DNA of 31,958 nucleotides from a bacterium (GTDB lineage: Bacteria; UBP15; UBA6099; JAJRTR01): contig JAJRTR010000077.1 in NCBI GenBank assembly GCA_024278215.1, forward strand, positions 1 to 31,958, given 5' to 3'. Below are positions 6,803-28,907 of the stretch, in pieces. Position 1 is the first letter of the stretch; each line of letters opens with the position of its first letter. The translations under genes were made by a program, and so were the position numbers. Under the pieces are notes generated by a model. It did not search any database, was not told the origin of the DNA, and was given only the letters and a program-made list of their open reading frames with translations.

Positions 6803-6829
6803 TAGAACCTTTCAACATGTGCCGTGCTG

Positions 6830-6866: not shown

Positions 6867-6928
6867 ACGTTTTACCCGCGTTGGTAAAATATCCGGGTTT
6901 ACAGCCGGGTTACGGTACACGACAGCTA

Positions 6929-10075: not shown

Positions 10076-10146
10076 CTGTACCCCTGCTTTCTGCGTCAGG
10101 ACTTTTCAAGTGCCTGGGATGGAAACTGAAACTCCCGAGTTCCGAA

Positions 10147-13181: not shown

Positions 13182-13182
13182 T

Positions 13183-14565
13183 TCATTTGCCTCCCATCAC
13201 CGGAAGTGAAGTGCCCAGAACCTGCTCCAGCTTCGCGATGTTCTGAACAAGGTCTGTGCGGGCTCTGGCCCGTGCCAGCTCGAAATTCAGCCACACAGCC
13301 TGAACCTCGAGCATCTCACTGAAAGACGCCTGGCCGGAGTTGTACCACGTTTCCGAAAGTTCCAGCGATTTTCGCGCCTGCGGCACAAGCGTCTTTTCGT
13401 AAAGTTCGATGAGCCGCCCGCTCGTTCTTATCTTGAAAAACAGGTTTTTTATCATCGAGTTTGTCATATTTATTCTTTCCTGTTTTGTGTCCGCGGCGGC
13501 ATTCAATCTGAATCGGGCTTCCTTCACCGCCGCCCTGTTCCTAGTGCGCCACACGGGCAGCGACATGCCGACCGAAACACCCCATGCGTCGCGCCCTCCG
13601 TCCCGCAGCGAAGGGTTGATCGAGTCTCCAATCGTGTTGTACATAAGCCCGACCGTATAGTTCGAACTGCCGGTCTTTTTTGCGAGAGCAATCCCTATTT
13701 CGCCCAGCTCCTTTTGTATCTCCGCCAGCAGAATCTCCTGCCTGTTGGCTTTTGCCGTTGTGTAGAGAGACTCGATGTCGAGTTCCGGGAGAGGCGCTTT
13801 CGCGAGTTCCGAAACAGAGACTTCTGTCTCGGGCGCGCGGTTCAGGAGCGAGTTTATTTTCGTTATTTCAGTCTCCTGAAGTTCTTCGAGCAGCAGCAGA
13901 TCATAGCTGACCTGTGCAATCTGCGACTGCGAGCGCAGGACATCCTGAAGCGGGCTGCCACCTGCCGCATAGTCGCGCTCGGCAACCGCGAGCAGCCGTT
14001 CGACCAGTTTCTTGTTTTCCTGTGTCAGTTGTATCGCCTTACGGAGATACTGGAGTTCCGCGTAACTGGTCCTCAAATCGGTGATAACATCGCGAACGGC
14101 GATCTCGTATTTCAACTGAGCGGCATCCGCCATCTTCGCCGCCCTGTCGCCCTTCAATCGCAGTTTTCCACGTGCCGGAAACATCTGGCTAAGTTTGAAT
14201 TGGCCCCGGTTGGCACCGAGTCTCGTTTCTATCGGAGAAGGGAAGTAGGCATATCCCAGCATGGGATCGGGCAGAGATTTCGCCTGCGGAAACTTCTCGA
14301 CCGCCGCCTGCCACTCCGCCCTCGCGGCGGATATCCCCGCATTATTTTCGTAGGCGGCTTCGATCAGCGAATACAGGGAGGATTGATCGCCGGGAGTTTC
14401 ATCTCCCGCCGGTCGGGCAGTTGTCTCGACCGTTTGCGGCGCAAGGCGGACACTGACGGCGTTGCCGCCGCCAATGTCCGCGACTGCCGCCGAAGCCGCC
14501 GTCAACAGCACAAGCAGTGCCGCTGCCGGAATCACTGCATTATTCCTATTAAAAAACCTCATCAT
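13183..14565 (-). CDS. TolC-family outer membrane efflux protein (second of two)
   Basis: The protein has 460 residues with a signal peptide ending near AASAAVAD. It is a compact, canonical OEP-family protein: SLYSLIEAAYENNAGISAAR opens the first repeat, SLPDPMLGYAYFPSP is a typical early strand segment, and the second repeat ends with YNSGQASFSEMLEVQAVWLN. It is clearly not a recent copy of its neighbour, which has a longer N-terminus and different core sequence. It sits between the DUF3347 gene (92 bp upstream, with a hairpin in the gap) and the other outer-membrane gene. Two channels with one pump raise the possibility of mixed trimers or of partner exchange with another pump elsewhere. 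Confidence 0.9.
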   Translation of the reverse strand: MMRFFNRNNAVIPAAALLVLLTAASAAVADIGGGNAVSVRLAPQTVETTARPAGDETPGDQSSLYSLIEAAYENNAGISAARAEWQAAVEKFPQAKSLPDPMLGYAYFPSPIETRLGANRGQFKLSQMFPARGKLRLKGDRAAKMADAAQLKYEIAVRDVITDLRTSYAELQYLRKAIQLTQENKKLVERLLAVAERDYAAGGSPLQDVLRSQSQIAQVSYDLLLLEELQETEITKINSLLNRAPETEVSVSELAKAPLPELDIESLYTTAKANRQEILLAEIQKELGEIGIALAKKTGSSNYTVGLMYNTIGDSINPSLRDGGRDAWGVSVGMSLPVWRTRNRAAVKEARFRLNAAADTKQERINMTNSMIKNLFFKIRTSGRLIELYEKTLVPQARKSLELSETWYNSGQASFSEMLEVQAVWLNFELARARARTDLVQNIAKLEQVLGTSLPVMGGK

Positions 14566-14600
14566 TATCCCTCCTGTGCAGGCTTGATCTTGATTTCTTA

Positions 14601-14637
14601 CTGAACCGGCGCGTTGTATAAGTACGCGCTGGTTCAG
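14601..14637 (-). terminator. Stem-loop between the DUF3347 gene and the pump genes
   Basis: CTGAACC-G-GCGCGT and ACGCGC-T-GGTTCAG form a 14-bp stem with one G/T mismatch and a 9-nt loop. No long T-tract follows on the minus strand. It may be a partial terminator or an mRNA processing/stability element that gives the first two genes higher expression than the pump genes. Confidence 0.45.
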
Positions 14638-14657
14638 TTTGTTGCAAGAAATCCGGG

Positions 14658-15335
14658 TCAGTGGGTATTTGTCATGTTGTCCATGCGTTCCGAGTGTTCA
14701 TTCTTCCCTTTTTCAGAACCTTTAAACGGGCATCCGCATTTGCCCGACTGCTTTTCGCATGTGCAGTTGCCTTCGCACTCCGCGCACTCTTTCGCCCAGT
14801 CGATGCTCTGCCCGCACATAAGCATATTTCCCTTACCGTAATACGGGTTGCGGGTCTTCTTGTCTGTCTGAAGCCAGTACCCCTTCGCCATCGGGCAGTA
14901 GAACACTCGATATTCCGCCGCCGCTTTTTCGGGCAGGTGATTCTTCACCAGTTCGATGACATTATCACTCAAAGCATAGAACCCGTCCCGGGCTTCCTTC
15001 AGCTTTATGCCCTTTTTCGCGAAAGTCTTTGCCGATATCCTAACATTTCCGAGAGTTTTTATCAGCTTTTCATTTTTCTTCTTATCTTTTTCTGCAAGCT
15101 CGATCGTCGCGTCGACACTCTTCATAATCTCCCCCGCGCTTTTTTCCACATGCTCGACCGTGCTGTTTGCCAGATCGGCATGGACCTGAATGTATCCACT
15201 TACAATCTCCTGGAGATGGTCTTCAATCGTGGGGGCCTTTTTTTCTTTTCCAAGCGCACCTGTCGAGGAAACAAACACAATCAACACAGATGCAACAACA
15301 GTCGATAATACTTTAAGGTAATTCAATGTTTTCAT
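14658..15335 (-). CDS. Periplasmic DUF3347 protein with cysteine-rich metal-binding tail
   Basis: The protein has 225 residues and a signal peptide (about 1-29, ending TGALG). A helical body (about 35-140) leads into the DUF3347 signature: FYCPMAKGYWLQ (C147), RNPYYGKGNMLMCG (C174). Such domains occur alone or fused to CusB-type adaptors and are thought to bind copper. After it comes a tail that the family does not usually have: C184, C187, C191, C193, C200 and C202 within 19 residues, resembling a metallothionein or a small metal chaperone, followed by a hydrophilic, His-containing end. The gene starts inside the stop region of the 53-residue gene upstream (23-bp overlap). It is likely a periplasmic Cu(I) buffer or donor, taking the place of CusF, which is not present here; that role is inference. 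Confidence 0.82.
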   Translation of the reverse strand: MKTLNYLKVLSTVVASVLIVFVSSTGALGKEKKAPTIEDHLQEIVSGYIQVHADLANSTVEHVEKSAGEIMKSVDATIELAEKDKKKNEKLIKTLGNVRISAKTFAKKGIKLKEARDGFYALSDNVIELVKNHLPEKAAAEYRVFYCPMAKGYWLQTDKKTRNPYYGKGNMLMCGQSIDWAKECAECEGNCTCEKQSGKCGCPFKGSEKGKNEHSERMDNMTNTH

Positions 15336-15474
15336 GTTCTACACTCCTTTGGTTTTCTTCGAATTCTTTCCATTCGAGGTCTAATTTATGTTCAAACTGT
15401 TTGTAGAGATAAACAGCCAGGAACACAAGCAATACAACACATGCTGCGATAAATGTTATTTGTATTCTCATCAT
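15313..15474 (-). CDS. Small 53-residue single-pass membrane protein, first gene of the copper operon
   Basis: The frame runs from ATG 15474 to TAA 15313 and is too short for usual ORF cut-offs. It has a good ribosome binding site, GGGAGG (15483-15488), exactly 8 nt before the start. The N-terminus MMRIQITFIAACVVLLVFL continues into one transmembrane helix (about residues 4-24), followed by a charged, amphipathic tail (KQFEHKLDLEWKEFEENQ). The stop overlaps the DUF3347 gene by 23 bp, so the two are probably co-translated. There is no homologous family I recognise. Its position suggests a small accessory subunit, membrane anchor or regulator of the efflux system. A second ATG (15471) directly follows the first and could be used instead. 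Confidence 0.72.
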   Translation of the reverse strand: MMRIQITFIAACVVLLVFLAVYLYKQFEHKLDLEWKEFEENQRSVEHENIELP

Positions 15475-15514
15475 CCCGGATGCCTCCCTTCAAACCAGTG
15501 TCGGCGTCATATAA

Positions 15515-15530
15515 GACAAACTACATGCCA
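15515..15530 (-). promoter_or_regulatory. Sigma-54-like promoter facing the copper efflux operon
   Basis: On the minus strand the sequence reads TGGCATG-TAGT-TTGTC. Against TGGCACG-N4-TTGCW it matches the -24 box except for one base, and has correct spacing; the -12 box has GT in place of the usual GC. A start near 15504 would give a 30-nt leader with the GGGAGG site correctly placed before ATG 15474. The divergent NtrC-type regulator supports the reading; the -12 deviation weakens it. Confidence 0.42.
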
Positions 15531-15875
15531 AACGAAACAAAGAAGTCGACTAATTGTGTCAATAAACAAAAACGCCTGTTAAAATCTTCTTTTTTATCGG
15601 AATTATTATTTCAAAACTTCATAATATCGCAAAGCCCCAACACAGGCACATTTCTTTTTGTGCGTTTTGAATCATCCTGCTGCTTGAAATGCAACACCTT
15701 TGCGTTCAGAATATGTTCAACAGTGTACGAACAGGGGCATGACGTCACAAGAATCTCGCAATATGAAAATATGCGTGAAATACCGCGTGGAAAGCACAGG
15801 GTACGGCAAACCCGTCACAAATTTATTACAGCATATTATTGATACGACAACAGATTGTTTTCATGCGTGAATTGT

Positions 15876-15891
15876 TGGCACAAAGATTGTT
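15876..15891 (+). promoter_or_regulatory. Sigma-54-like promoter facing the histidine kinase gene
   Basis: TGGCACA-AAGA-TTGTT matches TGGCACG-N4-TTGCW at nearly every conserved base with exact spacing; again the -12 GC is GT. Transcription would begin near 15902, about 50 nt before the kinase ATG, which would let the response regulator control its own synthesis. Confidence 0.42.
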
Positions 15892-15953
15892 TCAGTAATT
15901 ATAATCGCGGATTTACTGCCCATACTATGCAAATACTGAACCGGGTGATCTGA

Positions 15954-17033
15954 ATGAACAAAAAGAAAGACCGGAATGTTATTATTGGAATAGCGCTTTT
16001 AATTCTCATTGTAACAACCCTGCATTTTTCGACCCCGATACACAGCGTTTTCTATCACGATATTTACGACAGGCTCTATTATATCCCGGTAATCATCAGT
16101 GCGTTCTTCTTTGGGATCAGGGGCGGAGGAACCGTTGCGGCATTATCCGGCGTGATATTTTTTTCGCACCTTTTCTTTCAATGGCGAGTGCATGAACACA
16201 TGGACCTCACAGGGCGTTACCTCGAGATCATGATGTACATGGTTGTCGGCATTCTGATCGGCCTGCTTACCGACCTCGAGCGAAAACAGCGCAGAAAAAC
16301 AGAGGTCGCTTATGAGCAGTTGAAGGATTCTTTTGAAAAAGCGAAGGAATCCGCGCGACTCGCCGCGCTCGGCACACTGGCAGCAGGTATCGCCCATGAG
16401 ATAAGGAATCCGCTGGGCGGCATAAAGGGCGCGATGGAGATTATTTCCGATGAATTCGCACCGTCCCATCCCAAATATCGTTTCGTCGAAATCATCAATA
16501 AAGAAATATTGAGAATGGAACGCATAGTGGGCGATTTTCTTGGGTTTTCCAGGCCGCAGAAACCTGTTCTCGCGCCCGACCGGATAAACAGCGTCGTCCG
16601 CTCCGTGCTCGATCTTTGCAACAAAAACCTCAGTAAAAACCATATCACACTGAAAACCGAATTCGGCGAGGCAGTGCCTTCCACCTGCATCGACACGAAC
16701 CAGGTCAAGCAGGTTCTCCTTAACCTCATCCTCAACAGCATCGACTCGATGCCGGAAGGCGGAGCCCTCGAAATCAGTACTCATCAGGTCGAAGACGGCA
16801 TCGAGATAAGGGTGCTCGATTCGGGGAAGGGGATCGACCCGGATGAAGTCGATAAACTGTTCGAGCCTTTTTATACAAAAAAACAGAATGGGACCGGACT
16901 GGGGCTTCCGATCAGCAGGCAGATCGTCGAGCAGCACGGAGGCAGTTTGACAATCAGCAACAGAAGTGATTCGCCCGGAACCGTGGCCGTCGTGCGGATT
17001 CCACTCAATGTTTCATGTGAAGGAGGTGTATGA
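15954..17033 (+). CDS. Membrane sensor histidine kinase (ZraS/HydH-like class)
   Basis: The protein has 359 residues. About four hydrophobic segments fill residues 8-107 with very short loops, so there is no large periplasmic sensor domain. A linker helix (about 108-135) leads to HisKA with the phosphoacceptor H148 in GIAHEIRNPLGG, then the HATPase domain: N box NLILNSIDSM (N261), DSGKGI (289-294) and TGLGLPIS (314-321). The short extracytoplasmic surface suggests sensing within the membrane or through a partner, for which the small membrane protein of the divergent operon is one candidate. The gene is followed one base later by its response regulator. Regulation of the copper operon is inferred from position. 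Confidence 0.9.
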   Translation: MNKKKDRNVIIGIALLILIVTTLHFSTPIHSVFYHDIYDRLYYIPVIISAFFFGIRGGGTVAALSGVIFFSHLFFQWRVHEHMDLTGRYLEIMMYMVVGILIGLLTDLERKQRRKTEVAYEQLKDSFEKAKESARLAALGTLAAGIAHEIRNPLGGIKGAMEIISDEFAPSHPKYRFVEIINKEILRMERIVGDFLGFSRPQKPVLAPDRINSVVRSVLDLCNKNLSKNHITLKTEFGEAVPSTCIDTNQVKQVLLNLILNSIDSMPEGGALEISTHQVEDGIEIRVLDSGKGIDPDEVDKLFEPFYTKKQNGTGLGLPISRQIVEQHGGSLTISNRSDSPGTVAVVRIPLNVSCEGGV

Positions 17034-17034
17034 T

Positions 17035-18399
17035 ATGGCCCCGACAATACTTTTTGTCGATGACGATGAAAGCCTGCGCGAGGTTACAAAGTATCACCTC
17101 GAGCAGGAAGGTTATAAGGTCTTAACCGCGGAAAACGGACTTGCGGGCTTCGAGCTTTTCACAAAACTCAATCCCGATGTCGTGGTGTCGGACATCTCGA
17201 TGCCGGAAATGGACGGTATCCAGCTCCTGAATAAGCTGAAAAGCGTAGCGGAAGACACCATGTTTATCATCGTAACAGCGCACGGCTCGGTCGAGTCCGC
17301 CGTGGAAGCGATGCAGATAGGCGCGAGTGATTATATCGAAAAACCGTTCTCTTCCGATGCCCTGAAATTGAGCATAAAGAAGGCGCTGCGCGTCGCGAAA
17401 CTCGAACGTGAAAACAGGTATCTGAGACAGGTGGCCCAGGAGAAATTTCAATTTGAAAATATTGTGGGCACATCGAGCAGCATGCAACGTGTGTATGAAG
17501 TCGCCTCTCGCGTTGCCGACAAAAACACGTCGGTGATCATACTTGGAGAAAGCGGAACCGGGAAAGAACTTCTGGCTAAGGCGATTCACTTCAACAGCCG
17601 CAGAAAATCCGAGCCTTTCATTCCGATCAACATGGGCGCTATCCCCGAGCACCTCGTAGACTCCGAACTGTTCGGTCATGAAAAAGGATCGTTCACAGGG
17701 GCGTCGGCACGCCATACAGGCGCTTTCGAGCGAGCGCACAAAGGAACGATATTCCTTGATGAAATAGCAGAAATGCGGCTGGAACACCAGGTGCGGCTTC
17801 TGCGTGTTCTACAGGAAAAGGAAATAGTGCGTGTGGGTGGTGAAAAAGCTGTTCCGGTCGACGTGCGGGTGATCGCCGCGACAAACAATAATATAGAACA
17901 ATTAGTGAAGGAAGGCACCTTCAGGGAAGACCTCTATTACCGGCTGTCGGTAGTTCCTATCAGGCTGCCGGCGTTGCGGGCGCGGGTCGACGACATCCCG
18001 TTGCTTCTCTCGCACTTCCTGAATAAGTATTGTGAAGACGCGGGCATAGCAAAACTCAAGGTGTCCGGCGACGCACTGAAAATATTGACTAAATACAGTT
18101 GGCCGGGGAACGTGCGTGAGCTGGAAAACACAGTCGAACGCTGTGTCGCAATGTCTTCTTCAGGAGAAATAACAGTGGACGATCTGCCTGAAAGGATAAG
18201 GGAAAAAGCGGCCTCGGGCGGAGCACTCGCTTTCAGTTTTGAACTGCCCGAAGAAGGCATCGTACTCGAAGATGTCGAGAAATCGCTTATCCAGGCGGCG
18301 CTTAAGAAAAACGATTACAACCAGTCCGCAACCGCCCGCTACCTCGGCGTCACCAGGAACACACTTCTCTATCGGATGGACAAATTCGGGTTGAAATAA
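17035..18399 (+). CDS. NtrC-family sigma-54-dependent response regulator
   Basis: I choose ATG 17035 because AAGGAGG lies at 17020-17026 and the REC domain begins directly (ILFVDDDES); an open frame extends upstream from 16966 but overlaps the kinase. The 454 residues hold a REC domain with phosphoacceptor D53 and K103, an AAA+ domain and a Fis-type helix-turn-helix. In the AAA+ domain are Walker A GESGTGKE (171-178), the sigma-54 contact loop GSFTGA (218-223) and Walker B IFLDEIAE. The DNA-binding end is QSATARYLGVTRNTLLYRMDKFG. The contact loop has Ser instead of the usual Ala, a mild variant of GAFTGA. It should activate sigma-54 promoters, plausibly those in the divergent control region. 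Confidence 0.94.
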   Translation: MAPTILFVDDDESLREVTKYHLEQEGYKVLTAENGLAGFELFTKLNPDVVVSDISMPEMDGIQLLNKLKSVAEDTMFIIVTAHGSVESAVEAMQIGASDYIEKPFSSDALKLSIKKALRVAKLERENRYLRQVAQEKFQFENIVGTSSSMQRVYEVASRVADKNTSVIILGESGTGKELLAKAIHFNSRRKSEPFIPINMGAIPEHLVDSELFGHEKGSFTGASARHTGAFERAHKGTIFLDEIAEMRLEHQVRLLRVLQEKEIVRVGGEKAVPVDVRVIAATNNNIEQLVKEGTFREDLYYRLSVVPIRLPALRARVDDIPLLLSHFLNKYCEDAGIAKLKVSGDALKILTKYSWPGNVRELENTVERCVAMSSSGEITVDDLPERIREKAASGGALAFSFELPEEGIVLEDVEKSLIQAALKKNDYNQSATARYLGVTRNTLLYRMDKFGLK

Positions 18400-18461
18400 G
18401 GGGGCCTGTAATTTGCAAATGCACCGTAGTGTCGTGTCAACGATGAAAAGATGTAATGTTG

Positions 18462-18480
18462 ACGCGATTTAATATCGCGT
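18462..18480. terminator. Hairpin between convergent genes
   Basis: ACGCGAT-TTAAT-ATCGCGT is a perfect 7-bp stem with a 5-nt loop, just before the stop of the minus-strand gene. Just upstream, GTCAAC and GTTGAC can pair across about 16 bases. No T-tract is present, so termination is uncertain. Confidence 0.35.
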
Positions 18481-18481
18481 A

Positions 18482-19657
18482 TTACTGATCGACTGCCTGT
18501 TCCGATGTTTCCTCTTTCGCCGCTTCTTCCGTTTCTCCTGTTTCCGTTTCCTCTTTCGCCGCTTCTTCTTTCGCTTTTTTCTCTTCCGCAAGTCGCTTCT
18601 TATATGCTTCCATAGCCTTTTTATCGGCTTCCTCCCGCGCTTTCTTTCGGGCATTATCCTTTTCCATAAACGATTGTTCTTTCTCGTAATACTTTTTCAT
18701 AGCATCCATATCTCTGCCCCTGCAGAATCCCGGAAGAATTTTTTCCTTATATATTGTCTCGCAATAATTTTTATCCTTCTCGTATCCTGTTGCGACACGC
18801 GGCAAAGATTCTGTGAATGACTGTGCGTACTCACGTCTGGTGATAGGCATATCCCGAAGTATTTTGAAAGCCAGAAGATATTCCATGGCTCTTTCGCTGG
18901 AATCGGATTCGAAGAAGCCGCTCTTCCCGGCGGTTTCCGCGTCCATCTTCGTAAATAACATACAGATGTCCCGGACATCCCCCTTTTTAATGGAAGTACA
19001 CATCGTGGAATCGCTTTTATCCAATGCGTCCAGCAGAGTATTGAAAGCGCCTTCGCAGTTATCGCCCAGACCTAAACGATCGGCAAACCTCGAACATGCA
19101 CCGGCTATAAGGCTCTTGCCAAGAAGGCTCCTGTCTCCTCGCATTATGGCAAATAAATAAGCATTGTTCAGGCAATTTTCCTCTGTTTTTTGTATCAATT
19201 CCTCTGTCTTTTGCCTGTCTTCCCGGGAAAGCGTGGCCTCGACATCGACAGTATCTGTCGCCTGTGCGAAGAACGGTTCATACTCGACACTGTCAACTTT
19301 GCACATGGGTTCATCCGTATACTCGATTTGCCTGCACAACATATAATCTCTCAGTCCGTTAATTAACGTTAGATCGTTTTCCTTCGAAAAACTGTTCAGA
19401 GCGAGATAGAATTCGTCGATATCGATAGGGCCCGCTTTTGCGATACAGGCAGCCTTTGCGGCATCCCAGTCGACATAAGAGAATGTCAGGGGGGCTGTCG
19501 CGGATTCCTCTTCGCCCTCTGCGACCGCCGTACCGGTGCCGTCAACTGCCCGGCCAGCCGTCGCGGCACTATCTTTTGTCTGGGAAACGACCTGCGATCC
19601 CGCCATCAATGTAAAAACCAAGGCGGTTATAATCAATAAGATGCTTTCTCTTTTCAT
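18482..19657 (-). CDS. Secreted cysteine-containing protein of unknown function with charged coiled-coil tail
   Basis: The protein has 391 residues. The start is supported by GAGGTGA a few bases upstream, and a signal peptide spans about residues 1-27. The middle (about 60-310) is largely helical and contains about a dozen cysteines in spaced pairs (for example MLCRQIEYTDEPMC and GACSRFADRLGLGDNC), suggesting disulfides in the periplasm. From about 320 on the sequence is a Lys/Glu/Ala-rich low-complexity helix (ARKKAREEADKKAMEAYKKR) ending in an acidic tail. I recognise no family. The gene is 62 bp downstream of another unknown gene on the same strand, so the two are probably co-transcribed. 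It could be a cell-envelope structural or scaffold protein. Confidence 0.75.
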   Translation of the reverse strand: MKRESILLIITALVFTLMAGSQVVSQTKDSAATAGRAVDGTGTAVAEGEEESATAPLTFSYVDWDAAKAACIAKAGPIDIDEFYLALNSFSKENDLTLINGLRDYMLCRQIEYTDEPMCKVDSVEYEPFFAQATDTVDVEATLSREDRQKTEELIQKTEENCLNNAYLFAIMRGDRSLLGKSLIAGACSRFADRLGLGDNCEGAFNTLLDALDKSDSTMCTSIKKGDVRDICMLFTKMDAETAGKSGFFESDSSERAMEYLLAFKILRDMPITRREYAQSFTESLPRVATGYEKDKNYCETIYKEKILPGFCRGRDMDAMKKYYEKEQSFMEKDNARKKAREEADKKAMEAYKKRLAEEKKAKEEAAKEETETGETEEAAKEETSEQAVDQ

Positions 19658-19719
19658 ATCGACTCACCTCATCATTTTAGAATCAGTTATTGTTAATAAT
19701 GTCAGAACTGCAAGTATAA

Positions 19720-20172
19720 TTATTTATTCTTTTCTTCCCACGGGACAGCAATGTTCAGAATGTCGTCAAGGTAAGATTCATCGCTGTGGGCGGAGCTCTC
19801 TTCAATAATCTTCGCTATGGACTCGGGCAGAGCTTCCTCGGGTTCTTCTTCCTTGAATATCTTCGGGTTTGATAGTGCGTTGTACACTATTTCTTCGCAG
19901 GTCTTGATATTGTTTTTCAGGATAGTTATCTGGATTTGTTTTTCGTAGAGAAGATTTCTGAACTCACGGGCGGCGGTTTTTTGTTTCTCCTCGTCCGGAT
20001 CATCATTTCCGGCGTATGCGCTGGAGGTCACCAGCACATCGTAAAACTTACCGTCTTTGCTTTTCTGCAACAGAAACGACTCTTTGTCCGTCGCGAGTTC
20101 ACAGCATGTTGCCAGTACGGCTTCCTTCTTAAACTTTGATTTCGAGACTGAAATTTTCATGTGTGGTTTCAT
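19720..20172 (-). CDS. Unknown acidic cytoplasmic-type protein
   Basis: The open frame extends to 20259, but a promoter-like TTGACA (20261-20266) with a -10 near 20238-20245 would put the transcript start at about 20232, so the first ATG is not usable. ATG 20172 has AGGG nine bases upstream and gives 150 residues; ATG 20196 (158 residues) is the alternative. There is no signal peptide or membrane segment. The N-terminus is basic (MKISVSKSKFKK), the middle contains a predicted helix region (KQIQITILKNNIKTCEE), and the C-terminus is strongly acidic (EEEPEEALPES). No known family or catalytic motif is recognised. It precedes the secreted protein gene in the same direction. Confidence 0.6.
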   Translation of the reverse strand: MKPHMKISVSKSKFKKEAVLATCCELATDKESFLLQKSKDGKFYDVLVTSSAYAGNDDPDEEKQKTAAREFRNLLYEKQIQITILKNNIKTCEEIVYNALSNPKIFKEEEPEEALPESIAKIIEESSAHSDESYLDDILNIAVPWEEKNK

Positions 20173-20237
20173 AACCCTTTTCCCTGTGGACGACATGCCG
20201 GAACCGCTCTTGCTTTGTGAAAAACGCCTATACCAAA

Positions 20238-20266
20238 AGTCTATAGTCGTGTCTGACATGTGTCAA
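20238..20266 (-). promoter_or_regulatory. Sigma-70-type promoter for the two unknown genes
   Basis: On the minus strand a perfect -35 TTGACA (20266-20261) is followed by TAGACT at 17 bp or TATAGA at 15 bp. The near-palindrome TGACATGTGTCA overlaps the -35 region and could be an operator. Confidence 0.5.
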
Positions 20267-20274
20267 CATGTTAT

Positions 20275-20358
20275 CGTAGTTCACTCTAAGGGAGATCGGC
20301 GTTATGAGGGCAATTCGCCGTTGAGATGCCCGGCGCGACTAAAGTGATGTGAACTACG
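20275..20358. other. Structured intergenic element with pseudoknot potential
   Basis: Closing arms CGTAGTTCAC (20275-20284) and GTGAACTACG (20349-20358) are perfectly complementary. Inside, CGGCG (20297-20301) can pair with CGCCG (20316-20320), while GGGCA in that loop (20308-20312) can pair with TGCCC (20327-20331). This is the geometry of an H-type pseudoknot. The element lies between divergent transcription units; whether it is ever transcribed is unknown. Confidence 0.4.
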
Positions 20359-20472
20359 GCGCGTTCAGTCGATATAATTCGAGGCGGTGTCCCGGATCGA
20401 CAAAAGAATATCCCGCGAACCCGTGCGGAGGGTAAAAAACTTCATGTATACGGAAAAAGGCACAAGTTCAGC

Positions 20473-20478
20473 TATAAT
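20473..20478 (+). promoter_or_regulatory. -10 box of the radical SAM operon (candidate)
   Basis: TATAAT is a perfect -10 hexamer, 50 bp before the chosen ATG at 20528. No good -35 is present at the matching distance, so an activator or an extended element may be needed. It argues against longer starts further upstream. Confidence 0.4.
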
Positions 20479-20527
20479 AAAATCAGGAATACGGGTCAGC
20501 CGGGTTATTTTCGGGAATCACAATTAT

Positions 20528-22027
20528 ATGAGAATCGCGTTCGTATTTAATCCGTTCAGTTACAAGCTGCACGAGGAGAACATCAGGGTCGTTCAGAAGT
20601 ACTTCGGGCTCTTCCCTCCGTTGAGTATGGCATGGGTAGCGGCGATAGCGGAGCGTGCGGGGCATGAGGTGATCCTTGTGGACGCGCGCACCCTCGGCCT
20701 CTCAAGGGAAGAAACGCTCGAGGTGCTCAAAGAGTTCGAGCCAGACCTCCTCGGCTTCATGATGACTACATACATGTTTCAGGAAACGCTTGGCTGGGCG
20801 CGGTATTTGAAAAACGAGCTGAAGGTTCCTGTCGTAATAGGCGGCTACAATCTCAGGGTATATCCGCGCGAGTCGCTTATGAACGACGTTGCCGACTTCG
20901 GTTGTTACAAGCAGGCGCTCAAGATGTTTCCGGCCTTCCTCGATCAACTCGGCGGCGACCGTGATTATGAAGGCGTTCCGGGCCTGATTTATAAAAAAGG
21001 CAACGATATTGTTGTCAACGCTCCGCATCCCGACGAGGAGAACTTCGACGAGTTTCCGAACCCGGCGCGGCATCTGCTACCCAATGAGATGTATGCCGAG
21101 TTTCCGACCGAGCGCAAGAATTTCACCGTTATGGTAACCAGCCTCGGATGTCCCCGGAAGTGTGTATTCTGCGAAGCGGGCGGCACCAGGTACGCACCAA
21201 GAAGTTCCGCCACTGTGATCGCCGAAATAGAGGAATGCAACTCGCGGTACGGTATCAGGGAAATCGACTTTTTCGATTACGAATTCACGATAGTCAGGAA
21301 GCGCACCGAGGCAATTTGCGACGGAATAATCGACCGGAAAATAGATGTAATCTGGGCGTGCAGGTCCAGAATCGATTCGGTCGACGGCGCGCTCCTCGAG
21401 AAAATGCACAATGCCGGATGCAGAAGAATATATTTCGGCATTGAAACCGGAAACCAGCAGGCTCTGGACGAGATGCACAAAGGAATAACGGTATCGCAAA
21501 TAAGAAATACCATTGATATTACTATGCAACTGGGGATAAAAACCCTTGGATTTTTCCTTGTCGGCGTGCCGGGAGAAACCCGGAAATCGCAAAAAGAAAC
21601 AGTGCGTTTCGCAGCCGGACTGAACCTGCATTACGCGCAATTCTCGAAACTCACAGCCAAGCCGCAAACACCCATGTGGCGCGAGCTTGTCGAGAATACC
21701 GGCGAGGATTACTGGAAAGAATATATACTTGGCCGCACAGAAGAAAAACAACTGCCGCGCCCCTGGACGTCACTTTCAAACGACGAGATCGATCACCTGA
21801 CAAAATGGGCTTATATACATTATTACACGAGGCCGGGATTCCTGCTCCGGGCCATCCTGTCCGTCGCTTCCTTCCCGGAGTTCAAACGCAAATTATTTGC
21901 GCTGCTCGATATGGTTTTCAGTCAGGAAAAAGTGTCTGAGGCATGGAAGAAAAAGAACCGAAAATTCAGGATATACAACGATAACAGGCGACGCCGCCTG
22001 AAGACAGGCCGGGAGATGGACAAATGA
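20528..22027 (+). CDS. Radical SAM protein with B12-binding-like N-terminal domain (1)
   Basis: The frame is open from 20387, but the natural N-terminus is MRIAFVFNPF at 20528, which gives 499 residues and lies downstream of the TATAAT. Residues 1-150 form a Rossmann-like cobalamin-binding-type fold. Its usual GGxH segment reads GGYNLRVYP (105-113), and the VxGEGE segment is replaced by DFGCYKQA, so cobalamin binding is doubtful. The radical SAM cluster motif is CPRKCVFC (C208, C212, C215). The TIM-barrel continues with FFDYEFT and YFGIETGNQ. The C-terminal region is long, basic and helical. It is the first gene of the operon and overlaps the next by 4 bp. The reaction is unknown; relatives methylate or rearrange inert carbon centres, often in lipids and natural products. 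Confidence 0.85.
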   Translation: MRIAFVFNPFSYKLHEENIRVVQKYFGLFPPLSMAWVAAIAERAGHEVILVDARTLGLSREETLEVLKEFEPDLLGFMMTTYMFQETLGWARYLKNELKVPVVIGGYNLRVYPRESLMNDVADFGCYKQALKMFPAFLDQLGGDRDYEGVPGLIYKKGNDIVVNAPHPDEENFDEFPNPARHLLPNEMYAEFPTERKNFTVMVTSLGCPRKCVFCEAGGTRYAPRSSATVIAEIEECNSRYGIREIDFFDYEFTIVRKRTEAICDGIIDRKIDVIWACRSRIDSVDGALLEKMHNAGCRRIYFGIETGNQQALDEMHKGITVSQIRNTIDITMQLGIKTLGFFLVGVPGETRKSQKETVRFAAGLNLHYAQFSKLTAKPQTPMWRELVENTGEDYWKEYILGRTEEKQLPRPWTSLSNDEIDHLTKWAYIHYYTRPGFLLRAILSVASFPEFKRKLFALLDMVFSQEKVSEAWKKKNRKFRIYNDNRRRRLKTGREMDK

Positions 22028-23550
22028 AAATCCTTTTTGTTCATCTGGGCAGGGAGCATCTGGGACTCGAGTATCTTTCCGCAATGTTGAAACAGGCGGG
22101 CCACAGCACAGCGCTTGCCTGTGACATCGGTTTGTTCGGGATCAACGATAACATAATAATCAACAAACGCCTTGAACGTCTTTTCGACCGCTCGAATTCC
22201 GTGCTCAGGAAGGTCGCGGAGTATGAACCGGATATCGTGTGCCTCTCGGCCTATACCACGACCCTGCAATGGTGCTTCAGAATCGCGGAAGCGGTGAAGG
22301 AAATGAAGCACGACACCAGGACGCTGCTCGGCGGCACTCATGTCACGTTGTCGCCGGAGAGTGCGCTCGGTTCGGCGGCTATTGATTACGCGGTTCGAGG
22401 CGAAGCCGAATTGATTATCGTGGAACTTGCAAACCGCCTGGCGGCGGGAGAGTCCGTTGAAGACATGCCCGGAGTCGTCTGCAGGAGCGCGGACGGGATA
22501 AAAATAAACGCGCTTCCGCCGCATCCACGCGACCTGGATTCACTGCCTCTGCCGGACAAGCAACTGTTCGAGCGCGTAATCAACATCAGAGACGACTACA
22601 TGACCCTGACGACCCGGGGCTGTATTTTCAACTGTACGTATTGCTGCGAACATTCGGTCAGGCGACTGTATCCGCCGGGCGAATATCGGCGCGTGCGCAG
22701 CGTTGGTTCACTTGTCGGGGAACTGGAAACGATGTACTCCAGATACGAGTTCAGGGAAGTATATTTCGCGTGTCCGCTGTTTCCGCCGGACAAGAAATGG
22801 GTAGCGGAATTCGCTGCCGAATATCGCGCGAAAATCGACAAACCGTTCTACTGCTTCAGCCATGTGAACCTTTTCGATCTCGAATATGCGCAACTGATGA
22901 AGGAAGCCGGATGCAGAAATATTGAGTTCGGCGTTCAGACGATGAACGAGGATATCCGGAGGAACAGGCTGGGCAGGCCAGAGACCAATGAAAAGATTGT
23001 CGAGACACTTTCGATCTGCGAGAGGGTCGGACTCCGCTTCGATGTTGACGCTATATTCCAGTTGCCAGGCGAGCGGGAGGAAGACTTCCGGGTCGCCATA
23101 GATACGTTCTCTTCTTTTAAAATGCTGCACCGGATCAAGGTCTTCAATCTGGCTTTGTTTCCGGGCACCGACTTGCTGGAACATTCGCTGACGGAAGGGC
23201 GGATAGACGAGAACGACCGCATGGAAATCATGGCGGGCGGCGGTGGCGACTTCTTCCACAGCAGGCAGCTCGAAAGCGGCGTGCCGCTGCGTAAACAAAG
23301 AGCTTATGAGAATATCCTTCGCATATTGCCGTTGTTCCCGGGGCTGTTTTCGGGGCGGCCGGCCGGCGGTTTCATGTTGCGCCTGATGTCGCTGCTGCCG
23401 CACCCCGCTGTCCGGTTTCTCGAATTTATCAACCTGGCGCGCCTGAGGGATTTAAGACTGTCTTTTTACATTCGACTTTATGCACGCAATTTGTTTGCCC
23501 GCACACCGGGACGTCTCCGCCGCGATTCCGGCACACGACCGGGCAAATAA
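22024..23550 (+). CDS. B12-binding radical SAM protein (2)
   Basis: The protein has 508 residues and its ATG overlaps the previous stop (ATGA). The N-terminal domain is a typical B12-binding-type domain: ILFVHLGREHLGLEYLS, then GGTHVTLSPESAL (103-115) and YAVRGEAE (122-129). The radical SAM motif is CIFNCTYC (C200, C204, C207), followed by barrel elements VYFACPLFPPDKKWV, IEFGVQTMNEDI and the SAM-contact segment FQLPGEREEDF. The C-terminal about 130 residues contain hydrophobic stretches (ILPLFPGLFS, FMLRLMSLLPHPAVRFL) that suggest membrane association or a lipid substrate. It belongs to the same broad class as the hopanoid and tetrapyrrole methyltransferases. The substrate is unknown. Confidence 0.9.
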   Translation: MKILFVHLGREHLGLEYLSAMLKQAGHSTALACDIGLFGINDNIIINKRLERLFDRSNSVLRKVAEYEPDIVCLSAYTTTLQWCFRIAEAVKEMKHDTRTLLGGTHVTLSPESALGSAAIDYAVRGEAELIIVELANRLAAGESVEDMPGVVCRSADGIKINALPPHPRDLDSLPLPDKQLFERVINIRDDYMTLTTRGCIFNCTYCCEHSVRRLYPPGEYRRVRSVGSLVGELETMYSRYEFREVYFACPLFPPDKKWVAEFAAEYRAKIDKPFYCFSHVNLFDLEYAQLMKEAGCRNIEFGVQTMNEDIRRNRLGRPETNEKIVETLSICERVGLRFDVDAIFQLPGEREEDFRVAIDTFSSFKMLHRIKVFNLALFPGTDLLEHSLTEGRIDENDRMEIMAGGGGDFFHSRQLESGVPLRKQRAYENILRILPLFPGLFSGRPAGGFMLRLMSLLPHPAVRFLEFINLARLRDLRLSFYIRLYARNLFARTPGRLRRDSGTRPGK

Positions 23551-23559
23551 ATTGCGGCG

Positions 23560-24558
23560 ATGGAAAGTTTGCCGATGAGTGTCTATTCGCAAATGATTCG
23601 AATCAGGTTCATGGGCGTTTTCCGGCCCCTGTTTATCAGTTGGATGATTACAGACCGCTGTAACCTGAAATGCAGCGCATGCAGCCGCAACAGCGGTCGC
23701 ACCGGTGATTCTCCGAAGCAGGTAGCAGACAGAATAGTAGAGATTGCCGCGCGGGAGAGTGTTTTCAAGATCAATCTCACAGGTGGCGAACCGCTCATTC
23801 ATCCCGGGATCGGCAGTATTATCGAACGGTTGCACAATAGCAACATCAAAGTCACAATGAACACCAATGGTGTTTATGCCGCCGACAGGATCGCTCTGCT
23901 CAAACCAGTGAACGGTGTAAATGTGAGCCTGGACGGGCGGCCGGAAACGCACGACGCATACCGCGGCAGTGGTGCGTATGGAGCGGCAGTCGCCGCAGTC
24001 GAAACACTTCGCGGGGCTGGCGTTCCGGTGAAAGTTACATGTTCGATAAGCTCGGCCGCCGGACTTGAAGACATACGGTCCGTACTCGAAACCGCCGGCC
24101 GGTTGGACGTTCCTGTTGTGTTCCAGCCCGGCCAGCTTTTCATTCTGGGCAGCAGGTTGCCGAATCCTGCCGCTCCCGCCCCTTCGGACTTCGGCGATCT
24201 CCTCGAGTATGTAATCAGTTTCAAACGCAAACATCCCGCCGCGATACTCAATTCACTACAGGGATTGAGTCATCTCGCGAAATTGCCCGCCGATGCGCGG
24301 CTATTCTGTGGAGCGGGGAGATTCTTCTGCAGGATCGACCCCGCGGGCAATGTCTTTGCCTGCAGCAACAGCCTGGGGCCGGAATCGCCCGCCGGCAACA
24401 TTCTCTCTTCTTCGCTGTCCGACTTATTCGCAGGCTACCGGCACCCGCCCTGCACTCAATGCTGGTGCGCGGACAGGGTTGAAGCCAATCTTATTTTCGG
24501 GCTTAACCCGGGTGCCGTAACTAATTACATGCTGCACAGGGCTCGTTTCAATCTCTGA
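23560..24558 (+). CDS. Radical SAM protein with SPASM-like C-terminal cluster region
   Basis: The protein has 332 residues and lacks a B12 domain. The motif is CNLKCSAC (C34, C38, C41), followed by TGGEPLIHP (74-82), MNTNG (100-104) and VSLDGRPETHD. The C-terminal region has C250, C257 and C268 in CGAGRFFCRIDPAGNVFACSN, then CTQCWC (C298, C301, C303). This resembles a SPASM/twitch domain that holds one or two extra iron-sulfur clusters. Such proteins modify peptides, cofactors or other small molecules. No peptide precursor is found nearby. It starts 9 bp after the previous gene with no strong ribosome site, so an internal ATG (23575) is possible. Confidence 0.88.
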   Translation: MESLPMSVYSQMIRIRFMGVFRPLFISWMITDRCNLKCSACSRNSGRTGDSPKQVADRIVEIAARESVFKINLTGGEPLIHPGIGSIIERLHNSNIKVTMNTNGVYAADRIALLKPVNGVNVSLDGRPETHDAYRGSGAYGAAVAAVETLRGAGVPVKVTCSISSAAGLEDIRSVLETAGRLDVPVVFQPGQLFILGSRLPNPAAPAPSDFGDLLEYVISFKRKHPAAILNSLQGLSHLAKLPADARLFCGAGRFFCRIDPAGNVFACSNSLGPESPAGNILSSSLSDLFAGYRHPPCTQCWCADRVEANLIFGLNPGAVTNYMLHRARFNL

Positions 24559-24591
24559 TGAGCATAGAAAGGCCCGTGACAACTGCTGACC

Positions 24592-25593
24592 ATGACGCAT
24601 CCGGATAAAGACAATGCAGCCCGTGAATACCCGGCGGCGCGGGCGTTTTTTCCAAAAGCGTTCATTGCGATATTACCGGTTGCGCTTACGGTTCTCACGA
24701 TACTTGTAGTTCTCAGGCATGTAGACCCGAAGACGGCATACGAGCATCTTCTTTTGATACATCCGGGCACACTTGCCGCGGTTTTTCTCGCCTCGATAAT
24801 TTCAAAAGTATTTCTCGCATCCCAGAAATGGCGGATATGTCTTGCATCCGCAGGCTACAAAATCGGTCTCCGGCAGTCTATCCTTATTCAGCTCGGCTAT
24901 CTCCCCGCTGCCTTGATTCTACCGTCGAAAACCGGCGAACTCGCCAGGATCATGTACCTCGAGCGTTGTCACAATATTCCTTCCGAAGTATCGCTGTCCG
25001 CGCTTGTCTATGATAATTTGATCAATATCATAGTGTTAATTTCCCTGCTCGCCGTTTCCTGGTCATACTTGCCGCGGGAGGGCGTCGCTTCATATCGTAT
25101 TCTACTGCTGCTGCCTGTTCTGCTATTGTTTTCAGGCCGTTTCCGGCGTGTTCTTTTTCGGGCGGCGAACCACCTGCCCGGCACTGTCGGAAAACGATTC
25201 CAAAATGGACTGGATTTTTTCGGCAACATAGGCTCTAAAACTTTTCTCCTTCTCATCGCGATCGGCTTTGCATACAGGCTCGTCGCACCAGTTTTCACCG
25301 CCTTGTTGCTGATGAGAGACCTCGGCATCACAGCGCCCGCGGCGGCCGTTTGCGCGTCGACCACCCTGATCGATATCGCTGTTTCGTTTCCTATCGGAAT
25401 CGGAGGCGTAGGGGCGCGGGAAGCTTTGTATATTATACTGTTCAAGGCCTATGGTCATCCGGCGGTTTTATTAGCCGCCGGGGTCGCCGCGTCGTTTGTC
25501 GAAAAGATATTCCCGGCCCTGCTCGGGTTGCCGTTTGTATATAAGCTGGTGTTGAATTATTTCGTTCACGCCGGGGACGATGGAAGCAGGTGA
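24592..25593 (+). CDS. LPG-synthase-TM (UPF0104) family membrane protein, putative lipid flippase
   Basis: The protein has 333 residues with about eight membrane segments. Family motifs are visible: SKVFLASQKWRICLASAG near 69-86, PSKTGELARIMYL near 109-121, and near the end GIGGVGAREALYIILF. It matches the transmembrane part of MprF and the stand-alone proteins such as AglD/HpnL, without the lysyl-transferase domain. Members are thought to move lipids or lipid-linked intermediates across the membrane. Its place in the middle of a radical SAM operon suggests that the pathway's substrate or product is a membrane lipid. The N-terminus is soluble for about 23 residues. It starts 33 bp after the preceding gene. 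Confidence 0.88.
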   Translation: MTHPDKDNAAREYPAARAFFPKAFIAILPVALTVLTILVVLRHVDPKTAYEHLLLIHPGTLAAVFLASIISKVFLASQKWRICLASAGYKIGLRQSILIQLGYLPAALILPSKTGELARIMYLERCHNIPSEVSLSALVYDNLINIIVLISLLAVSWSYLPREGVASYRILLLLPVLLLFSGRFRRVLFRAANHLPGTVGKRFQNGLDFFGNIGSKTFLLLIAIGFAYRLVAPVFTALLLMRDLGITAPAAAVCASTTLIDIAVSFPIGIGGVGAREALYIILFKAYGHPAVLLAAGVAASFVEKIFPALLGLPFVYKLVLNYFVHAGDDGSR

Positions 25594-25679
25594 ATGCCCC
25601 GGTAAACCGCTGATAATATTCCGGGGTGCACGCATCGGCTATGATGGAAAATGCTGTGACATGGAGTTAAACTTTTCTT

Positions 25680-27932
25680 ATGAATCATGAGGCAACAGGG
25701 AGAGTGCTGATAATCAATCCGCCGGCGATTGTCGCTTCGGATTTCATCGACTATCCCTATTTTGCGAATATCGGTGCCCTCCAGCACGCTTCCGTTATTG
25801 CCGCCGAAGGGTTCGACGTGACCGTCGCCGATTCATTCTCACATACGTCGAGTGACACCGTCGCGCTGGACGACGGTTCTTTCCTTGTCGGATGCGGGCC
25901 GGAGGCGATGTCCGAGTTGTGGCGCAACGCGACTTTCGATGCTGTGATTGTATGTGTCGGCGTTTTTCACAGACCGTTTGAGCGCAACGATTTTCTCGCC
26001 GGTTTTTTCAGGGATTTAAGAAAAACATTCGTGAACACTCCGATAGCCGCGGCTGACGCGTATTTCGGCGGGATGCACTATGTGGATTATTCGGGAGATG
26101 ATTTTATCGCCGATTATCCCGAGATAAATGTTTTAATCAGGTATGAAACCGAGGCGGCGGCGCTGCACTGGCTGAAAAATATCGGTTCGAGTGACGGGCG
26201 GGGCCGTGTGATTATCGGCGAATATCCGCGCAACCTCGACGACCTGCCGTTTCCCGCATGGGACCTGATTAATGTGGAAAACTACATGCGTTTCCTTACC
26301 TGTTTTCTTAAGTCCACCGGGCGCCGGACCGATTTTTCGGATATAATGCCGGTCCTGCCCGTTGTGACGTCCAGGGGCTGTCGCTACAATTGTTCGTTTT
26401 GCTCCGGGACCGATATAGCGCAGACCGGCAGCTACAGAAATGTCTCGAACGCGCGTCTGCGCCGTCATATAGCGGCCCTGAAAAAAGAGTACGGTATAAA
26501 AGGGATCGCGGTTCTTGACGGACTGGCGAACGATACTCCGGACGACTTCCACGAAAAGCTCGACATATTCAAGTCCGCAGATTTAAAGGTGTCTTTCCTG
26601 AACGGTCTTCGCGCCGACCGCCTGGAAAAATCACATATTGAAATGCTTTCGCAGGTTTCTCCGTCACTGACAGTTAGTGCGGAAAGCGCATCGGAAAAGG
26701 TGAGAAACGGCATATTGAACAAAAGGCTGGAGCTGTCCTCTATAGACAGGGTGGCGGCGTGGTGCGAAGAATTCAGTTTGCCGTTAAGCATTCATTACAT
26801 GGTCGGAGTGCCGGGAGAAACCACGGCGGACGTGAATGCCACACTCGATCATGCGCACTCGACGGCAGCCGGGCACGGCGCGAATCCCCTGATTCAGTTT
26901 TGTGTGCCGCTGCCGGGTTCCGTCATCCATAAAAAACTCGCTTCGGACAGCGGAATCATATCGGCTGCCGGGACAAATTACTTCGGGCTTTTCAGCGGCG
27001 GCAGGGCGGATGAACCCGCGGATGCGCACTCCGCCCGCCTGAAGCGAATGCTTCGTTATTTCAAGATGAGAATGCGGGAGTCGACCCCGGAGAAACTGAT
27101 AATCAATCTGACATACTTCTGCAACAACAAGTGCGAAATGTGCGCGGTGGGGGGCAGGCCGAGGCGCAACATGAGTTTTGAAAGATGCTCGGAACTTCTG
27201 ACGGATTACAGGCGGCGCGGCGTAAAACTTCTGGACCTCGACGGCGGGGAACCGACACTACATCCCGACCTTCTGGATATAATCGGAGCCGCCCGCGACA
27301 TGGGATACGACAGCATAAATGTGACGACAAACGGAAGGAAACTTGCCTCACGGGATTTAGCGGCGCGCCTATTGCTGAGCGGAATCACGGACCTGCACAT
27401 TTCTTTATATGGGCCGGACGCCGCGACTCACGAGCGCATAACCGGGGTGAAAGGCAGTTTCGAAGAAACGCGAAAAGGCATCCGCAACATTCTCCGGCTG
27501 AAGCCGGGGCATGTTTCGTTCGCAGCCAATACGGTATTGACAAACAGCAACTACAGGATGGTTTCCGGGCTGGCGGAATGGCTGGTGGATACAGGCGTCG
27601 CGGCACTGGACGTACAGTTCCCGACACCGTTCGGTTCCGCCGTGAAAGAGCATCTCCCGCCGGTTGGGGAAGCTGTCGCGGAATTTGAAAAAGCAGCGGG
27701 CAGGTTCGGTGATGTCATGAGGTTCAACCTGATAAATCTTCAGCCGTGCATGATGCCGCGGGGTTGGCCCGGTGCAGGGGCGGACGCGGAGAAATACAGC
27801 AGACACATGGCGTTCGTGGACGCGCCGCCGCAGAGCCTGGCGGTTTATCTCGCATCGAAGCGCAGGCGCGGCCCGGAATGCCTGAACTGCGAATATTATA
27901 TAATCTGCGAAGGTTTCTATATCTTCGATTGA
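25680..27932 (+). CDS. Tandem radical SAM fusion: B12-type N-half plus second radical SAM C-half
   Basis: The protein has 750 residues in one uninterrupted frame. The N-terminal half (1-about 460) has a degenerate B12-binding-like domain (VLIINPP, FGGMHYVDY at 129-137, IRYETE replacing VRGEGE) and a radical SAM motif CRYNCSFC (C234, C238, C241). It also has VSAESASEKVRNGI and MVGVPGETTADV. The C-terminal half (about 465-750) is a second radical SAM domain: CNNKCEMC (C481, C485, C488), DGGEPTLHPDL (521-531), VTTNGRK, ISLYGPD. It ends with C690 and CLNCEYYIIC (C734, C737, C743), probably ligands of an auxiliary cluster. Two complete domains in one chain suggest two sequential radical reactions on one bound substrate. 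Its start is 86 bp after the previous gene; a GGAG sits 13 nt upstream. Confidence 0.9.
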   Translation: MNHEATGRVLIINPPAIVASDFIDYPYFANIGALQHASVIAAEGFDVTVADSFSHTSSDTVALDDGSFLVGCGPEAMSELWRNATFDAVIVCVGVFHRPFERNDFLAGFFRDLRKTFVNTPIAAADAYFGGMHYVDYSGDDFIADYPEINVLIRYETEAAALHWLKNIGSSDGRGRVIIGEYPRNLDDLPFPAWDLINVENYMRFLTCFLKSTGRRTDFSDIMPVLPVVTSRGCRYNCSFCSGTDIAQTGSYRNVSNARLRRHIAALKKEYGIKGIAVLDGLANDTPDDFHEKLDIFKSADLKVSFLNGLRADRLEKSHIEMLSQVSPSLTVSAESASEKVRNGILNKRLELSSIDRVAAWCEEFSLPLSIHYMVGVPGETTADVNATLDHAHSTAAGHGANPLIQFCVPLPGSVIHKKLASDSGIISAAGTNYFGLFSGGRADEPADAHSARLKRMLRYFKMRMRESTPEKLIINLTYFCNNKCEMCAVGGRPRRNMSFERCSELLTDYRRRGVKLLDLDGGEPTLHPDLLDIIGAARDMGYDSINVTTNGRKLASRDLAARLLLSGITDLHISLYGPDAATHERITGVKGSFEETRKGIRNILRLKPGHVSFAANTVLTNSNYRMVSGLAEWLVDTGVAALDVQFPTPFGSAVKEHLPPVGEAVAEFEKAAGRFGDVMRFNLINLQPCMMPRGWPGAGADAEKYSRHMAFVDAPPQSLAVYLASKRRRGPECLNCEYYIICEGFYIFD

Positions 27933-27989
27933 GTGCGACAGACGCAGTGCGGGAAGTTCGTCCGTTAGAAATGCGGCAGATGCCGTCCG

Positions 27990-28907
27990 GTGGATTCGCC
28001 CGGTACTGAAGGAGTGGTCTCCCTGATAAAAAAGATAGAAATAGTCACTTGGTACAAATGCAATTGCCGGTGTTCCTTTTGTACTTCTCCATCCATGAGC
28101 GGAGACGGCATGACGACACGAAAGATCGCCTCGCTGCTGTCCGGGTACAGGGAAAAAGGCGTTGCGAAGGTGGATTTCGGAGGCGGAGAACCAACCGCGA
28201 GACATGACCTTCCGGTTCTTGCAAAGGCGGCCGCCGAACTCGGCTATAAACATATCGGTGTAAAGTCCAACGGGATGCGGTTCTGCTATCCTGATTATGC
28301 GGAGCAGTGCATGGGGGCCGGGTTCAACGACTTTTCCATTTCTTTGTGGGGATATCCGGCGGATATGCACGATCGTATGGCAGGCAGGACAGGCGCGTTC
28401 GACATGACGGAGATGGGTTTGAATAACCTTGTCGATTTCGGCGCGGATGTGTGTGTGGACCTCCTGGTCACAGTGCAATCGCTGCCGGCGCTGGGCGATG
28501 CTCTCAAGCATCTGAGCGGTGAAGTCGGAGTGAGGAAGTTCCGGTTGTGGGTGTTTTCGATATTCGGCGCGGGGGGCCTGTGCACAGACATGATGCCGCA
28601 CCTGGCACAGGTCGGCGAAAGCGCGGCTGCCGCCTACAGCGCGGTCCGGCAGGATGTCGACTGGGTGAGAACCTCTCATGTGCCGCCATGTCTGCTGGGA
28701 GGAGCCCGTGAGATGTACTTCAACGTGAGTGAACAGGGGCTGCTGGTGATTACGCCGGGACATAGTTTCATGGGTGAAGATTCTCCGTTCGAGAAAGGAG
28801 TCCACGTTGCGGCGTGCCGCACGTGCCGCCTGATGGACAAGTGCGCCGGCCCCCGCGACGAGTACGTGAGAATCCGAGGCGACGGCGAATTGAAAACCGT
28901 GGAATAA
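27990..28907 (+). CDS. Radical SAM protein paralogous to the C-half of the fusion
   Basis: With the GTG at 27990 it has 305 residues. Motif CNCRCSFC (C24, C28, C31; C26 is extra), then FGGGEPTARHDL (63-74), VKSNG and FSISLWGYP. The C-terminus has C234 and CRTCRLMDKC (C276, C279, C285), the same spacing as in the fusion protein (C-x41/43-C-x2-C-x5-C), and the barrels are also similar. The start is uncertain: AAGGAG (28009-28014) lies 8 nt before a CTG at 28023, which would give MIKKIEIVTW, the natural beginning of such proteins, whereas GTG 27990 has no clear ribosome site. It is the last gene of the operon, 57 bp after the fusion gene. Confidence 0.87.
   Translation: MDSPGTEGVVSLIKKIEIVTWYKCNCRCSFCTSPSMSGDGMTTRKIASLLSGYREKGVAKVDFGGGEPTARHDLPVLAKAAAELGYKHIGVKSNGMRFCYPDYAEQCMGAGFNDFSISLWGYPADMHDRMAGRTGAFDMTEMGLNNLVDFGADVCVDLLVTVQSLPALGDALKHLSGEVGVRKFRLWVFSIFGAGGLCTDMMPHLAQVGESAAAAYSAVRQDVDWVRTSHVPPCLLGGAREMYFNVSEQGLLVITPGHSFMGEDSPFEKGVHVAACRTCRLMDKCAGPRDEYVRIRGDGELKTVE

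Follow-up and report, generated by a model that had tools for sequence, protein, structure and literature searches.

We analyzed a 31,958-nucleotide stretch of bacterial DNA (assembly GCA_024278215.1, contig JAJRTR010000077.1, positions 1 to 31,958; hereafter the window), which is contig C47 of a 4.55-Mb genome (G000; 207 contigs, 95% complete) from a small candidate phylum sampled here by seven genomes. Positions 20528-28907 hold an operon of six genes, g1 to g6, all read in one direction. The g1 and g2 genes overlap by 4 bp and the remaining gaps are, in gene order, 9, 33, 86, and 57 bp, the widest lying between g4 and g5. Five of the products (g1, g2, g3, g5, and g6) are radical S-adenosylmethionine (SAM) proteins, and g4 is a membrane protein of family PF03706 (Table 1). 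In a whole-genome search these five carried six PF04055 domains, two of them in g5, all above the Pfam cut-off. An earlier interpretation of the nucleotide letters (the sequence-only reading) had described the tight co-directional operon with its 4-bp overlap and short gaps correctly, but had undercounted its content at four radical SAM proteins with five radical SAM domains. Base composition revealed no sharp island border.

Table 1. Genes of the operon, with positions in the window.
Gene	Product	Position	Strand	Length	Domains and remarks
g1	B12-binding-like and radical SAM protein	20528..22027	+	499 aa	PF02310, PF04055; CX3CX2C at residues 208-215; best-conserved member
g2	Second B12-binding and radical SAM protein	22024..23550	+	508 aa	PF02310, PF04055
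g3	Radical SAM protein; C-terminal Cys-rich region of SPASM/twitch look	23560..24558	+	332 aa	PF04055
g4	Stand-alone polytopic membrane protein, MprF flippase-domain-like	24592..25593	+	333 aa	PF03706
g5	Fusion of a B12-radical-SAM-like half and a radical SAM half ending CX2CX5C	25680..27932	+	750 aa	Two PF04055; second module
g6	Radical SAM protein ending CX2CX5C	27990..28907	+	305 aa	PF04055

The start of g1 was placed at ATG 20528, because almost every orthologue in the alignment starts there; an upstream GTG at 20387 was dismissed on the same ground. Based on Pfam, g1 and g2 have a B12-binding domain N-terminal to the radical SAM domain, which is the layout of class B cobalamin-dependent radical SAM enzymes. 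The N-terminal half of g5 fails the Pfam B12-binding model and is B12-radical-SAM-like by its full-length similarity to model NF038361 (residues 7-423). The g4 protein scored 102.3 bits for PF03706 against a gathering cut-off of 33.4, the domain spanning residues 27-312, and matched no other Pfam domain. These results are in good agreement with several statements of the sequence-only reading, namely the ATG start of g1, three radical SAM domains behind B12-binding-like regions (in g1 and g2 by PF02310, in the g5 N-terminal half by NF038361 similarity only), and a flippase-type LPG-synthase-TM protein, as g4 passes PF03706 and has the predicted fold of the MprF flippase domain.

The g1 protein belongs to an uncharacterized enzyme family that is conserved across phyla. 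In the GTDB species set, g1 relatives were found at 54 loci with 57-69% identity, mostly near full length. An alignment of 28 sequences had a mean column identity of 67%, and the CX3CX2C motif was present in g1 and in all aligned orthologues. At about 60% identity, g1 occurred in Omnitrophota, Thermodesulfobacteriota, Auribacterota, Planctomycetota, Nitrospirota, Spirochaetota, Armatimonadota, and other groups, most of them anaerobes not yet in culture. Homologues of g2 (31-49% identity) and g3 (23-36%; present in L037, L040, L054, L016, L033, L034, and L046) recurred beside it, as did PF03706 proteins and a further B12-radical SAM family, gX, whose members are about 40-60% identical to each other. 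The window's order g1-g2-g3-g4 was found in a Desulfobacterales genome (L037), with gX next after. The PF03706 gene of that genome runs over two frames (L037:7859-8823); a sequencing error or a true frameshift could account for this, as could decay into a pseudogene. The order g1-g2-g4-g3-gX occurred in two genomes, one from a planctomycete (L040) and one from the Nitrospirota (L054), and the isolate Desulfatibacillum alkenivorans DSM 16219 (L042) had a compact four-gene version, g1-g2-g4-gX. In the sister genome G001 the arrangement was g2 and gX on one strand followed by g1 and g4 on the other (g2> gX> <g1 <g4). The distances of g1 and g2 co-varied (Mantel r 0.64, n = 17; none of 2000 permutations reached this value), which shows joint inheritance, a pattern by itself indistinguishable from shared species history. 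In the g1 tree, phyla were intermixed under supported forks, for example planctomycete, Nitrospirota, and Desulfatibacillum sequences together (99/99), and transfer of g1 between phyla is therefore likely, though not proven.

The full six-gene unit was seen solely in the window. Homologues of g5 and g6 adjoined each other in three genomes of the window's order (G001:C147, G006:C370, and G005:C290) with 32-52% identity, and the g6 homologues in these genomes were 43-50% identical; the g5 homologue at G005:C290 is truncated by the contig end. In sister genomes the g5-g6 homologues were located on other contigs than g1. Judged by gene order, the operon is made up of two modules, g1-g4 and g5-g6, that lie apart elsewhere, the second being conserved inside the window's candidate phylum. 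The sequence-only reading had treated the six genes as one operon and had named an order shared with no relative as grounds for refutation; the six-gene order recurred in no relative, and what proved to be conserved is the order g1-g4 (L037). The neighbors of g5-g6 relatives included a carbamoyltransferase, a PMT protein, a methyltransferase, and a nucleotidyltransferase (NTP-transferase). A g5 paralogue was also present on contig C10 of the window's own genome, where it lies on the strand opposite a B12-radical SAM gene and a Memo-AMMECR1 fusion gene (L087:563-6231).

In the window, g5-g6 follow g4 at the position that the unrelated gX holds in other lineages. No gX was found in the window's own genome at E 1e-60, and the N-terminal half of g5 was dismissed as a gX orthologue, as its best matches are not gX. 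The separate contigs of g5-g6 and g1 in sister genomes, together with the 86-bp gap before g5, would fit two unrelated pathways in one transcript, in which a rearrangement put the g5-g6 pair behind a conserved g1-g4 cassette although the pair contributes to a different product. We consider this unlikely, given that the genes share one strand with short gaps, that promoter-like and terminator-like sites were no more frequent than in shuffled sequences, and that the first half of g5 is B12-radical-SAM-like and sits where gX does elsewhere.

The genes around g1 relatives indicate what kind of substrate the core might act on. Among 111 co-oriented genes located within three genes of g1 across loci, B12-radical SAM neighbors excluded, the commonest families were PF03706 (13), GT9 (11), radical SAM (11), PMT_2 (8), TPR (6), GT2 (5), and DegT (3). 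In L001, a genome from the same order as the window, the g1 gene overlaps one for a PMT_2 glycosyltransferase (57.5 bits). The sequence-only reading had noted that no glycosyltransferase is present, which is true inside the operon, whereas in relatives g1 often has glycosyltransferase neighbors. At 12 g1 loci we found polytopic proteins ending in a TPR region, which by our comparison resemble TMTC-type transferases in architecture; five such membrane proteins, possibly TMTC-like glycosyltransferases, surround g1 and g2 at L039:3817-17027, three before and two after. Of 30 genomes, 20 had a PF03706 gene no more than 10 kb from g1, compared with 0.56 expected, in a set that was partly picked for PF03706 near g1; the conservative count, which allows for this selection, was 19 of 54 loci (P ~1e-19). 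The other PF03706 gene of the window's own genome (contig C200; L088, positions 4000-22000) overlaps a radical SAM/SPASM gene that is distantly g3-like (28%). It is part of a surface-polysaccharide cluster with GT2, a sulfotransferase, a FemAB-like protein, DegT, epimerases, and a Wzx-type protein.

Because the relatives of g1-g4 recur beside sugar-transfer genes, these proteins probably alter a lipid-linked surface sugar. The neighbors of g1 and g5-g6 relatives, together with the surface-polysaccharide cluster at L088, point to sugars as the substrate class, as does AprD4, an aminosugar enzyme that is the top match of g1 by sequence profile and by fold, and the MprF-flippase fold predicted for g4 makes a lipid or lipid-linked substrate plausible. 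Hence, we prefer a pathway that tailors a lipid-linked surface glycan to one that changes a lipid core. Our specific proposal, in which we place about even confidence, is that the operon joins two glycan-tailoring modules and that its core modifies a lipid-linked surface sugar by radical chemistry. Gene content, domain make-up, the recurrence of the core across phyla, its sugar-enzyme neighborhoods, and the predicted folds of g1 and g4 are results of the analysis; the sugar substrate, its lipid linkage, the flipping, and the order of the steps are what we infer here. The g1-g4 proteins would modify a sugar that a membrane lipid already carries or is to receive, in the form of a polyprenyl-phosphate sugar, lipid-linked oligosaccharide, or glycolipid. 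The AprD4-like g1 and the B12-radical SAM protein g2 would attack sugar carbons that are not activated, with deoxygenation, C-methylation, epimerization, or ring rearrangement among the conceivable reactions, and g3 would contribute an additional radical step. The lipid-linked product would then be carried across the inner membrane by g4, and g5-g6 may supply an extra radical step in this lineage.

Several observations weigh against this proposal. The operon in the window has no glycosyltransferase or sugar-nucleotide gene, and in the Desulfatibacillum, planctomycete, and Nitrospirota cassettes GT2 and GT9 genes are not directly adjoining. The glycosyltransferase counts beside g1 have no matched control of other B12-radical SAM families, and the neighborhoods are partly truncated, since many g1 loci stop at contig borders. 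PF03706 is found in many contexts, and the selection of the 30 genomes bears on its association with g1. The likeness to AprD4, finally, is that of a ligand-free g1 model at 20% identity, and a shared fold proves no function.

The same genes could instead form a new membrane-lipid pathway, in which the radical SAM enzymes would modify the hydrocarbon or glycerol part and g4 would flip the lipid. The MprF domain that g4 resembles in fold is a phospholipid flippase domain, B12-radical SAM enzymes take part in known lipid pathways, and the cassette is present in Desulfatibacillum, which is known for ether lipids. The hopanoid-associated B12-radical SAM protein HpnJ (TIGR03471) is the NCBIfam model closest to both g1 and g2; its alignments cover most of each protein and score 167.3 and 100.6 bits, respectively, against a cut-off of 577.6 bits. 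This cut-off was reached in none of the eight genomes searched, and several other radical SAM proteins of the window's own genome score at least as high as g1 (216 vs 167 bits). Hopanoid biosynthesis is unlikely because no hopene cyclase (TIGR01507) was matched at E 0.001 in that genome and the HpnJ scores are far under the cut-off. A ladderane-type lipid was dismissed as well, the ladderane-associated model TIGR04072 giving 91.6 bits for g1 and 84.7 for g2 vs a cut-off of 360. Among the 111 neighbors of g1, sugar enzymes recur and no lipid-synthesis gene does, and we regard a lipid pathway as improbable. The sequence-only reading had suggested a new membrane-lipid or lipid-linked pathway. It is supported in that the gene set is coherent, its first four genes being widely conserved and without a described product, and in that the g4 fold would suit a substrate that is a lipid or is linked to one. 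Nothing indicates modification of a lipid core, however, as the partners in relatives are GT9, GT2, PMT_2, and DegT and the best fold match of g1 is the aminosugar enzyme AprD4; the words "lipid-linked" half cover the glycan tailoring that we favor.

A peptide pathway (ribosomally synthesized and post-translationally modified peptide, RiPP) or a cofactor pathway with an unannotated precursor elsewhere, to which the peptide maturases among the closest NCBIfam models would point (mycofactocin maturase MftC, TIGR03962, for g3 at 108.1 bits vs a cut-off of 265; HxsC-type maturases for the g5 C-terminal half and g6 at 91 and 80 bits vs 500), is very unlikely, as these scores are far under the cut-offs, protease, transporter, and RiPP recognition families are not among the commonest g1 neighbors, and the operon gaps and flanks hold just short open reading frames without gene-like signs and no convincing precursor, as the sequence-only reading had stated.

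Beyond tailoring of a lipid-linked glycan in this lineage, we tentatively consider it possible that g1-g2-g3-g4, with or without gX, is a multi-phylum pathway, partly spread by transfer, in which serial radical SAM steps on a polyprenyl- or lipid-linked sugar are followed by export through a dedicated MprF-type flippase. This would be a new class of membrane radical glycan tailoring, whose products would not be among those of the surface polysaccharides known so far. If g1 does modify lipid-linked sugars, the surface glycans of g1-bearing groups hold undescribed radical-made sugars, and the flippase-like partner offers a handle on the export of such units. The question is testable, as the cassette is carried by the cultured D. 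alkenivorans DSM 16219.

The window's own genome contained 106 PF04055 matches. Its radical SAM genes often occur in runs of neighbors (contigs C37, C139, C205, C6, and C147), and the window's whole order appears rich in radical SAM clusters. Upstream of the operon, the window opens with a protein (1-1881), truncated by the window start, that weakly matches phage-spike and chlorovirus-glycoprotein repeats and is perhaps a secreted or fiber-like repeat protein. Positions 6929-14565 hold a heavy-metal-type RND efflux set with an AcrB-family pump, a CusB-like fusion protein with HMBD domains, and two OEP outer-membrane proteins, which is followed by a sensor kinase and a sigma-54 regulator (15954-18399). 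Between this two-component system and the operon, two proteins without a Pfam or NCBIfam match are encoded on the minus strand (18482-19657 and 19720-20259).

In a comparison with known systems, the AlphaFold2 (AF2) model of g1 (predicted local distance difference test score, pLDDT, 90) was most similar to AprD4, the radical SAM 1,2-diol dehydratase of apramycin biosynthesis (PDB 6fd2), with a Z of 31.0 over 402 residues at a root-mean-square deviation of 2.8, followed by MgmA (27.5), TsrM (26.0), and OxsB (24.9). AprD4 was also the top sequence-profile match of g1 (E 3e-31), and both proteins have the same two-domain layout. AprD4 and its reductase partner AprD3 deoxygenate paromamine, a pseudodisaccharide (PMC5461906), whereas the operon in the window is without a recognizable AprD3-type reductase. 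The AprD4-like overall fold is widespread in B12-radical SAM enzymes, and its prediction for g1 would be weak evidence of membership. By sequence, g1 lies outside the AprD4 family because it scored 94.4 bits for NF033070 vs a cut-off of 500, has a different cysteine spacing in the Fe-S motif (CX3CX2C vs CX3CX3C in 6fd2), and is 20% identical to AprD4. No radical SAM protein of the operon passed the cut-off of a function-specific model, and no described pathway with these parts turned up in the literature, with limited coverage of subscription papers. The operon parts belong to well-known superfamilies. The AF2 model of g4 (pLDDT 86) aligned with the MprF flippase domain across 281-296 residues (Z 22-24), with the next unrelated chain at 5.6; at 10-20% identity to MprF, g4 lacks the C-terminal aminoacyl-transferase half of that protein and corresponds in predicted fold to its flippase domain.

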